IMG/VR virus record: IMGVR_UViG_3300028196_000025
Location: 1 to 44,215 of that record
Length of the DNA: 44,215 nucleotides
Source of the DNA: a virus
Reading direction: 5' to 3' (one strand)
Of this stretch, positions 8,590 through 10,953 are shown piece after piece (the first letter of the stretch is position 1; each line of letters begins with the position of its first letter). The notes under the pieces were generated by a model, which saw only the letters and a list, made by a program, of their open reading frames with translations, made no database searches and was not told where the DNA came from. A program made the position numbers and the translations under genes.

Positions 8590-8915
8590 TGGCCCGTCTT
8601 AGAGCGCGAAAGCAAATATTAGAAGCAGTATCGATGCATATGCTTGAAGCTGGTAAGCTAATGACTGCAGGAGAGTGGAAGGTAGATTCTACAGCTCCAA
8701 TATCCTATGGACAACTACAAAATCATTTTTCAAGTTGGGGACGTTTAACTGGCTGTATTAAAAGAGATCATCCCGATGCTTGGGAAGAGCTTCATCGCCA
8801 GCCCGAACCTGAACCTGAACTAACACCCCCTCCGGCTCCCCTACCAAAAGAAGACCCTTTGGAAGCGTTGAGCCAGGCTGCTGAAAAAGCAGAATCTGAG
8901 AAAGAAGATGAATAA
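8589..8915 (+). CDS. 108-residue protein with acidic proline-rich tail
   Basis: Unrecognised. The N-terminal part is basic and helical (MARLRARKQILEAVSMHMLE), with a middle segment (GEWKVDSTAPISYGQLQNHF) that could be a small winged-helix-like fold. The C-terminal third is Pro/Glu-rich and acidic (QPEPEPELTPPPAPLP, then a Glu-rich end). It sits between the portal and the protease-capsid gene and overlaps the latter by 8 bp, so an accessory role in head assembly is possible but unproved. Confidence 0.55.
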   Translation: MARLRARKQILEAVSMHMLEAGKLMTAGEWKVDSTAPISYGQLQNHFSSWGRLTGCIKRDHPDAWEELHRQPEPEPELTPPPAPLPKEDPLEALSQAAEKAESEKEDE

Positions 8916-10908
8916 AATTTTTAATCTTACATCCACTTTTAAAGCTTTAGATGAGGATGAAGGAGGAGTTCATATCTGCGGCATGGCAAGTACTCATGAT
9001 GAGGATCGTGCGAATGATATTATCATGGCAGATGCTTGGACAAAAGGTGGTCTTAGAAATTTTGAAAAGAATCCTATTATTCTTTTTAATCATGATTATA
9101 ACAAGCCTATTGGACGCGCTACAGGACTTAAAGTCACTGAAAACGGTCTTGAATTAAAGGCTAAAATTTCAAAATCTGCGCCAGATAATGTAGCGCAGCT
9201 TGTAAAAGAAGGCATTCTTGGAGCTTTTTCTGTTGGTTTCCGAGTCAAGGATGCTGAACATATAACGGAAACTGACGGATTAAAGATTAAGGATGCTGAG
9301 TTGTTTGAGGTTTCAGTTGTATCTGTGCCTTGTAATCAAGCAGCTACTTTCTCTCTGGCGAAGTCATTTGACTCTATGGATGAGTATAATGAATTCAAGA
9401 AAACTTTCACCAATCGTGTAGATCTAGCCGGTCAGTCTCTGGCTAAGGATGAAAATTCATTTATAGCTAGTGAAACACCGGATGTAACGGAACAACCCGT
9501 GAACAAGGAGATCATTATGTCGGAGGTACAAACTCCCGAAGTCGACTTGGAAGCTTTTGCAAAGAAAGTAGCAGAAGAGACTGCTGCTAAGATTGCAATG
9601 AAGCAAGCCGAGCAAAAAGCTGCCGAAGAGAAGGCAGCGCAAGAAGCTGCTGAGAAAATTCAAGCAGAAGCTGAGCAACAAGCTCAACAAGAAAAACAGG
9701 TTTCATCAGCTATTCGTACTGGCATTGAGTCAGGAACTGAAAAGCTTGTTGCAGACCTGCAAGAAGACCTTACAAAGCGCAATGCAGACTTTGAAAAGAC
9801 TCTTGCTAAGTATAAGACGGAACTCGAAGAGAAGAGCGAAGAACTCACTAAAATGCGTGAGTCAAAGCGTGTATTCTCTGATCGCGCTACTCCTTCAGAT
9901 CTCGAGAAGCACACTGATGAGTTGGTAACAGCTCACATGCTGGGTGTCATGACTCGCAAGGGTTGGGATACTGACTATGCTCGTGATGTGCAAGAGAAGC
10001 TTGGTATTAACTATGCTACTAATGCTGGAAGCATTGATACCTCTGTCTCTACTGCTATTGAGAAAGAAATTATGCGTGAGCTGAAAGTAGCTCGCCTTTT
10101 CCGTGAGATTCCTGTAACCAGTGGCGCTACTGTACTGCCTCTGCAAACAGATACCGGTAAGGCAGCTTTTGCTATTAACGCAACTTCAGGTAACTTGGAG
10201 AACCGTCCCCAAGTCACCGCAAATCAGTACAATGCAAAAGAAGTTACTCTGAATGCATACCGTCTGGTTTCAAGCACATTCATGGATAATGACGTCGACG
10301 AGCAAGTTCTTGTTAACCTCATGCCGATGCTTGTAGAAGGTGTTGCACGTGCACACGGTCGAGCTGTTGAAGATGCAGTTCTCAACGGTGCTGGTTCAGT
10401 AACTGGCCTTGATGGTGTAGCTGCTGCTGGCGCATCTCTCGATATCTCTGATATCGCAGCTGGTGTTGCTCTTTCAGAGCTTTCCGCAGACAAGCTGCTT
10501 GCAGCTCGTGGTCTGATGGGTAAGTATGGTATCAATCCTTCTGAAATGGCATACATTGTTAGTCAAGAGTGCTACTACTCTCTCCTCGAAGATCCTAAGT
10601 TCCAGACTTTGGATGAGGTTGGTAACGATCTTGCTACTCGTATTGTCGGTGTTCTCGGTGCGGTATTCGGTACTCCCGTTATTGTATCTGAAGAAATGCC
10701 TGCTAAGGCAGCTGGTGCTCCTGCAGCATTCGCAGTTAACACTCGTAACTACGTAATTCCTCGACTCCGCGGTGTATCCGTTGAGCAGGACTATGAAGTT
10801 ATGAATCAGCGTCGTGTGATTGTTGCATCTCAGTCTCTTGGGTTCCAAGAGCTCTTTGCTGGTGCAACAGGTGCAGAGCCCGCAATCAAGCTCGATTATA
10901 TAGCGTAA
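8908..10908 (+). CDS. prohead protease - scaffold - major capsid protein fusion
   Basis: A 666-residue ORF with three parts. Residues 1-160 form an HK97-type (S78) prohead protease: NHDYNKPIGRA holds His62, GAFSVGF holds Ser108, and ELFEVSVVSVP follows. Residues 204-320 are an Ala/Glu/Gln/Lys coiled coil typical of the HK97 delta/scaffold domain. From about 325 the sequence is an HK97-fold capsid protein (SIDTSVSTAIEKEIMRELKV, later TRIVGVLGAVFGTPVIVSEE). Protease and capsid are usually separate genes. A strong internal start at 9517 probably makes a shorter scaffold-capsid product. Cleavage near 320-325 would release the mature capsid protein. Confidence 0.93.
   Translation: MNKIFNLTSTFKALDEDEGGVHICGMASTHDEDRANDIIMADAWTKGGLRNFEKNPIILFNHDYNKPIGRATGLKVTENGLELKAKISKSAPDNVAQLVKEGILGAFSVGFRVKDAEHITETDGLKIKDAELFEVSVVSVPCNQAATFSLAKSFDSMDEYNEFKKTFTNRVDLAGQSLAKDENSFIASETPDVTEQPVNKEIIMSEVQTPEVDLEAFAKKVAEETAAKIAMKQAEQKAAEEKAAQEAAEKIQAEAEQQAQQEKQVSSAIRTGIESGTEKLVADLQEDLTKRNADFEKTLAKYKTELEEKSEELTKMRESKRVFSDRATPSDLEKHTDELVTAHMLGVMTRKGWDTDYARDVQEKLGINYATNAGSIDTSVSTAIEKEIMRELKVARLFREIPVTSGATVLPLQTDTGKAAFAINATSGNLENRPQVTANQYNAKEVTLNAYRLVSSTFMDNDVDEQVLVNLMPMLVEGVARAHGRAVEDAVLNGAGSVTGLDGVAAAGASLDISDIAAGVALSELSADKLLAARGLMGKYGINPSEMAYIVSQECYYSLLEDPKFQTLDEVGNDLATRIVGVLGAVFGTPVIVSEEMPAKAAGAPAAFAVNTRNYVIPRLRGVSVEQDYEVMNQRRVIVASQSLGFQELFAGATGAEPAIKLDYIA
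9505..9510 (+). promoter_or_regulatory. internal Shine-Dalgarno site within the protease-capsid ORF
   Basis: AAGGAG lies 6 bases before an in-frame ATG (9517), codon 204, exactly where the protease domain and linker end and the scaffold coiled coil begins. This is one of the best ribosome-binding sites in the region and stronger than the one at 8908. Confidence 0.75.
9517..10908 (+). CDS. scaffold-major capsid protein from an internal in-frame start
   Basis: 463 residues starting MSEVQTPEVDLEAFAKKVAE. The product would have the scaffold (delta) domain plus the capsid domain, which is the normal composition of an HK97-type capsid precursor. Making it from the nested start would supply hundreds of capsid subunits per particle while the full-length ORF supplies few protease-bearing subunits. 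Its codons look more like those of a highly expressed gene (CGT, CTC, GCT) than its neighbours', which use many AGA and ATA codons. The start is an inference from the ribosome-binding site and domain boundary. Confidence 0.72.
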   Translation: MSEVQTPEVDLEAFAKKVAEETAAKIAMKQAEQKAAEEKAAQEAAEKIQAEAEQQAQQEKQVSSAIRTGIESGTEKLVADLQEDLTKRNADFEKTLAKYKTELEEKSEELTKMRESKRVFSDRATPSDLEKHTDELVTAHMLGVMTRKGWDTDYARDVQEKLGINYATNAGSIDTSVSTAIEKEIMRELKVARLFREIPVTSGATVLPLQTDTGKAAFAINATSGNLENRPQVTANQYNAKEVTLNAYRLVSSTFMDNDVDEQVLVNLMPMLVEGVARAHGRAVEDAVLNGAGSVTGLDGVAAAGASLDISDIAAGVALSELSADKLLAARGLMGKYGINPSEMAYIVSQECYYSLLEDPKFQTLDEVGNDLATRIVGVLGAVFGTPVIVSEEMPAKAAGAPAAFAVNTRNYVIPRLRGVSVEQDYEVMNQRRVIVASQSLGFQELFAGATGAEPAIKLDYIA

Positions 10909-10925: not shown

Positions 10926-10953
10926 TGGGGAGGTTCGCCTCCCCAAGTTTTTT
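10926..10953 (+). terminator. rho-independent terminator after the capsid gene
   Basis: The stem TGGGGAGG / CCTCCCCA with a TTCG tetraloop is followed by AAG and six Ts. No promoter is visible in the 12 bases before the next gene, so downstream head-tail genes must rely on read-through. The hairpin would then set a high capsid-to-connector ratio. Confidence 0.93.

Follow-up and report, generated by a model that had tools for sequence, protein, structure and literature searches.

The prohead gene of a marine phage, located on the plus strand at 8908-10908 of the window (the whole stretch of 44,215 nucleotides that was analyzed), appears to be two genes nested in one frame and sharing their end, from which a minor protease-scaffold-capsid protein and a major scaffold-capsid protein would be made. 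The probability of this reading is put at about 0.85. The full ORF encodes 666 amino acids in the order prohead protease, scaffold, major capsid protein. It has a weak Shine-Dalgarno sequence, and its start overlaps the stop of the upstream ORF (ATGAATAA). The protease part, a member of the S78 family with ordinary codon usage, occupies codons 1-203 (8908-9516, plus strand). The nested ORF (9517-10908, plus strand) encodes the scaffold and the major capsid protein, 463 amino acids in all, and has the codon usage of high expression in its capsid part. An intrinsic terminator-like hairpin followed by a T run (10926-10945, plus strand) lies directly 3' of the capsid gene; it was counted in favor of the nested genes, as were the hairpins ahead of the internal start.

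The original prediction that protease and capsid share one frame was borne out, coordinates included: 666 open codons contain matches to the Pfam families Peptidase_S78 (residues 22-157, 5.9e-16) and Phage_capsid (residues 376-645, 3.5e-12). The protein scores above the cut-offs of two S78 profiles, PF04586 (59.5 bits, cut-off 21) and TIGR01543 (72.6 bits, cut-off 59), and of the profile of the HK97-fold major capsid proteins, PF05065 (46.7 bits, cut-off 24.2). The whole protein reaches 56.3 bits with NF045541, the family of prohead protease/major capsid protein fusions, far below its curated cut-off of 525. His62 and Ser108, which had been named as marks of the protease domain, are invariant in 43 aligned sequences and are the putative active-site residues; both motifs are also found in the protease of BF23. 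The AlphaFold model of the 666-residue protein (mean pLDDT 53) is too poor for fold searches. It places residue 204 in a segment (177-213) for which no structure is predicted, and which is preceded by a helix (157-176) and followed by a long helix (214-289). The latter weakly supports the coiled coil that had been proposed to begin at about residue 204.

The internal start signal consists of the Shine-Dalgarno sequence AAGGAG (9505-9510, plus strand) and, 6 nt further, the in-frame ATG of codon 204 (9517-9519), at the domain border, exactly as had been noticed before. Its conservation was examined in about 150 relatives, all metagenomic and roughly 50-92% identical to the window protein. The close set comprises 80 viral contigs with proteins 64-92% identical (81 sequences with the window); a second, more distant set was fetched with a relative that is 51% identical to the window (L091). 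The matched frame runs without a stop in all 80 close contigs, and all of the about 150 relatives are fused. The homologue of codon 204 is ATG in 81/81 close sequences, always behind AGGAG-N6, which answers the question, raised with the original prediction, of whether AAGGAG-N6-ATG is kept in homologous fusions. In the distant set it is ATG in all 80 members with sequence at the site, and a Shine-Dalgarno-type site is present in 79/79 fused members, three members having a shorter TTGGAG site. Thus, wherever the site is covered, the ATG is found, always behind a GGAG core. Among nine conserved Met columns of the close set, a Shine-Dalgarno sequence precedes codon 204 in 81 of 81 sequences and each of the other eight in 0-3. 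A chance origin of the internal signal is excluded.

Conservation of the Met and of a nearby Glu for the sake of the protein, with the Shine-Dalgarno sequence being incidental, is a very improbable explanation. E201 and M204 are indeed invariant amino acids, and they are the only ones between residues 168 and 212 in the 43-sequence alignment; the linker around the internal start is otherwise variable and turns over by insertions and deletions. Glu201, however, is encoded by GAG in 81/81 sequences, 48/48 when redundancy is removed, and never by GAA in the 48, while GAG makes up only 34% of the Glu codons and GAA otherwise about two thirds. Residue 200 varies (K, E or Q), yet its codon ends in AG without exception. 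In a second family of fusions, described below, the residues before the ATG vary while the ribosome-binding core and the ATG persist. On these sequence comparisons the explanation can be regarded as already excluded for both families. The conserved Shine-Dalgarno sequence and ATG, together with the fixed GAG at codon 201 and the AG-ending codon 200, indicate that the site is under nucleotide-level selection for initiation. A further candidate cause of the constraint, a second coding frame beneath the constrained stretch, was rejected: the other two plus-strand frames run into stops there, as judged by eye from the alignment. At the aligned ORF start (locus position 2001), three relatives (L070, L071 and L073) have ATA in place of ATG; their true upstream start may be elsewhere or non-canonical. 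One Gammaproteobacteria MAG carries the fused gene on two contigs (G002:C77 and G002:C46; loci L088 and L089), which are probably binned phage contigs.

The two starts differ in predicted strength. The mean pairing energy with the 16S tail is -8.6 kcal/mol at the internal site versus -4.4 kcal/mol at the ORF start, and the internal site pairs more strongly in 80/80 sequences. Codon usage was measured with a fixed index (C-ending Asn, Asp, His, Phe, Tyr and Ile; GGY; CGY). In the window the index is 0.275 for the protease part, similar to the other genes there, versus 0.62 for the capsid part, the highest value in the window; across the family it climbs from 0.38 to 0.68, with a rise in 81/81 sequences. 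In T5-like phages the separate protease and capsid genes are set apart by codon usage in the same way. The single change point that fits best is near codon 252 and not at 204; the beginning of the nested gene therefore has mixed codon usage, which limits the codon-usage argument for two levels of expression. Both the Shine-Dalgarno strengths and the codon-usage contrast support, though indirectly, a minor full-length and a major 463-residue product, as originally proposed.

These data also bear on the possibility that only the full-length polyprotein is made, that its protease cleaves itself near residue 200, and that the internal ATG and Shine-Dalgarno sequence, no longer in use, are left over from a formerly separate gene. 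Fused polyproteins with an N-terminal protease do exist, and the annotation of gene l5 of phage c2 puts the start of the mature protein at codon 206. A relic would decay, however, whereas GAG at codon 201 and an AG-ending codon at 200 are found in every sequence, with the linker turning over around them. The codon usage points to different expression of the two parts, and a protease made in the same number as the capsid protein would be more abundant than the 60-90 copies that a prohead of HK97 or D3 contains (PMC12749128). This possibility is considered improbable.

The nested arrangement is found again in a second fused family, around Pseudomonas phage PAJU2 (loci L083 and L169-L248). In about 70 fused genes of this family an ATG is located at, or within one codon of, aligned position 197 of PAJU2 gp03. 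A Shine-Dalgarno-type site, weak in some members, is present in 65/65 fusions with Met in column 197. Ahead of the ATG the encoded residues vary greatly (EEG, LEG, QEG, KEA, KES), yet a core of GGAG or AAGG is retained, as is the ATG itself. Fused relatives without the internal start were sought, and none was present among the about 150 window-family and about 70 PAJU2-family genes. Ten natural relatives are split (L194, L199, L201, L214, L220, L223, L224, L235, L236 and L238); in these the capsid ORF begins with the codon that corresponds to the internal ATG of the fusions, or with a neighboring one. In two of them, L199 (GTT TAG GAGGCCATT TTG) and L224 (TAAGGACACCCGAAAATG), a single in-frame stop in or next to the Shine-Dalgarno sequence divides the protease and capsid genes. 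Since the split relatives start their capsid at the homologous codon, the internal ATG of the PAJU2 family is the position of the genuine capsid start, and the fused and split forms, by their sequences, can differ by one stop codon. The annotation of PAJU2 gives the fused product only.

Among NF045541-type fusions of the phylum searched, a strong Shine-Dalgarno-ATG pair occurs within 100 codons past the protease motif in 13/17, mostly 13-34 codons past it, versus 13/102 control windows. The MD8/Gifsy-2-type fusions carry such a pair as well, with the Shine-Dalgarno sequence overlapping a conserved amino-acid motif, so that it may be kept there for the sake of the protein. Gene l5 of Lactococcus phage c2 (L375:1419-2861) has AAAGGAG nine bases before an in-frame ATG at codon 131, at the protease/scaffold border, where the relatives are too similar to offer more than little diversity. 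With the PAJU2-type and NF045541-type fusions, the nested-start arrangement recurs in at least two phage lineages besides the window family.

The protease coding sequence of the window family contains conserved RNA hairpins; neither these nor the recurrence of the internal start in other fusion families was part of the original prediction. Only two stretches of the ORF, at about residues 108-120 and 162-217, stand out as peaks of synonymous constraint, and both of them fold. HP0 (9229-9279, plus strand) is a near-perfect hairpin of 14-15 bp with excess synonymous conservation. HP1 (9428-9481, plus strand) is long, irregular and nearly invariant, with compensatory changes in the basal stem. HP2 (9487-9500, plus strand) is a small hairpin whose 3' end lies a few bases upstream of the internal Shine-Dalgarno sequence, and its pairing is kept while its sequence and length change. 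When the protein was held fixed and codons were drawn from family usage, the mean z was -2.9 for HP0 and -3.1 for HP1, with values below -1 in every sequence tested. The segment 9415-9490, spanning HP1, gave -4.1, and tiles elsewhere in the ORF reached at most -1.9, except the one over HP1. HP0 and HP1 are thus conserved beyond the requirements of the protein. HP2 is formed by 42/42 distinct sequences and is strong in 39, versus 4.6 in shuffles (maximum 11); it occurs with 25 different arm pairs, and just 52/600 cross-combinations of arms pair. Both HP1 and HP2 are recovered by RNAalifold, and in five base pairs both partners have changed. The hairpins match no Rfam family and constitute a new candidate RNA element within a coding sequence.

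In one group of relatives (L091 and L093-L147) ~70 nt homologous to about 9418-9483 are missing, exactly in frame, and HP1 with them; this group keeps HP2 and the internal start. HP2 was found in 6/57 PAJU2-type fusions versus 8.9 expected from shuffling, and no comparable hairpin was found there. In T5-like phages, hairpins before the capsid ribosome-binding site seemed likely by eye; folding gave no support for them and showed no such hairpin ahead of the start of the capsid gene. A mobile palindromic element was also considered as the origin of the conserved stretch and was rejected: a 15-mer within HP1 is found in this gene family, and the few other matches share no flanks, as expected by chance. 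Likewise set aside was a role of HP2 as an insulator that holds the ribosome-binding site open, the effect being weak (0.61 versus 0.57 unpaired).

We tentatively suggest that HP0, HP1 and HP2 act in cis, as an RNA device, to determine how much full-length product is made relative to the nested capsid product. RNase processing, for example, may yield a stable mRNA for the capsid whose 5' end is close to HP2; alternatively, the hairpins may slow ribosomes arriving from the first start. The best guess is that they bias expression towards the nested product via processing, mRNA stability or ribosome traffic. A related alternative is that most of the capsid form is translated from an mRNA of its own, transcribed separately or produced by processing, with its 5' end near the hairpins, the ratio being set by transcription or RNase cleavage and the internal start being used mostly on that mRNA, not in competition of two starts on one mRNA. 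The conserved hairpins in the protease coding sequence and the terminator directly behind the capsid gene would fit it. It is nevertheless doubtful, as no sigma-70 promoter match was found on the coding (plus) strand upstream of 9517, the L091 group is without HP1, and PAJU2-type fusions have neither HP2 nor a comparable hairpin. This alternative retains the nested start and differs only in the level of control.

In the preferred scheme of two nested genes, ribosomes starting at 8908, behind the weak Shine-Dalgarno sequence, would produce the minor protease-scaffold-capsid chain, and those starting at 9517, behind the strong one, the major scaffold-capsid chain. Since the two chains share scaffold and capsid, they would co-assemble; by way of the scaffold the tethered protease would enter the prohead, where it would cut the scaffold and release itself. 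We infer in this way that both proteins are made, in unequal amounts, and are assembled together and cleaved. The internal start would belong to the capsid gene itself, retained at a junction where two neighboring genes have no stop codon between them. The original wording, that protease is delivered at low copy "without a second gene", needs to be changed: the data fit better with a capsid gene that is still present, nested in frame.

The nested start would be a simple answer to the problem of obtaining a low protease to capsid ratio from a one-to-one genetic fusion. Annotations treat the protease-capsid fusions of phages as single proteins whose capsid chain begins at the protease, and they overlook the nested start. 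Use of the internal start would place the true beginning of the major capsid protein about 200 codons further on, and would mean that phages with fused and with separate genes share essentially the same expression scheme. The occurrence of the nested start in at least three fusion lineages points to a general rule.

Fusion genes of this kind and in-frame nested scaffold starts are known already. In lambda, the protease gene C contains the nested in-frame start of the scaffold Nu3; Mu I/Z and herpesvirus UL26/UL26.5 are analogues. As in C/Nu3, a conserved internal start with its own ribosome-binding site is located at the protease border of the window gene, and by analogy it would part an assembly protein made in abundance from a minor form that carries the protease. 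The nested product of lambda is scaffold alone, with the capsid encoded by another gene, whereas the nested ORF of the window runs through scaffold and capsid to 10908 and includes no lambda-type free scaffold. The inclusion of the capsid in the nested product, the recurrence across lineages and the conserved hairpins of the window family set the present case apart.

Gifsy-2 has a protease-scaffold-capsid fusion gene, and one long frame of this type, as in the window, is shared by Gifsy-2, MD8 gp5, the Paracoccus prophages, PAJU2 gp03 and the NF045541 proteins. The protease of MD8 and Gifsy-2 is ClpP-like, versus S78 in the window. The tripartite genes of Pseudomonas phage MD8 (gp5; PMC8508860) and of the Paracoccus prophages (PMC6536676) are described, in the portions of these papers available, as encoding single proteins, unlike the nested reading, and the same portions do not mention an internal capsid start. 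A full-text search of the literature, covering few subscription papers, did not find an internal capsid start in such fusions, and priority is not claimed.

By sequence, the nearest isolates are T5-like phages (Demerecviridae: BF23, Vibrio phage Bennett and Proteus phage VTCCBPA139). They have the same order of portal, protease and scaffold/capsid as the window, and their protease and capsid genes are separate, with a gap of 7-17 nt, whereas the window and its relatives have one frame in place of the two genes of the T5-like head module. HK97 (gp4/gp5) and D3 resemble the window in having an S78-type protease and a scaffold fused N-terminally to the capsid protein. Their protease is a minor component of the prohead, with about 60 (HK97) to 90 (D3) copies (PMC12749128). 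Unlike that of the window fusion, it is the product of a separate gene and needs to be recruited.
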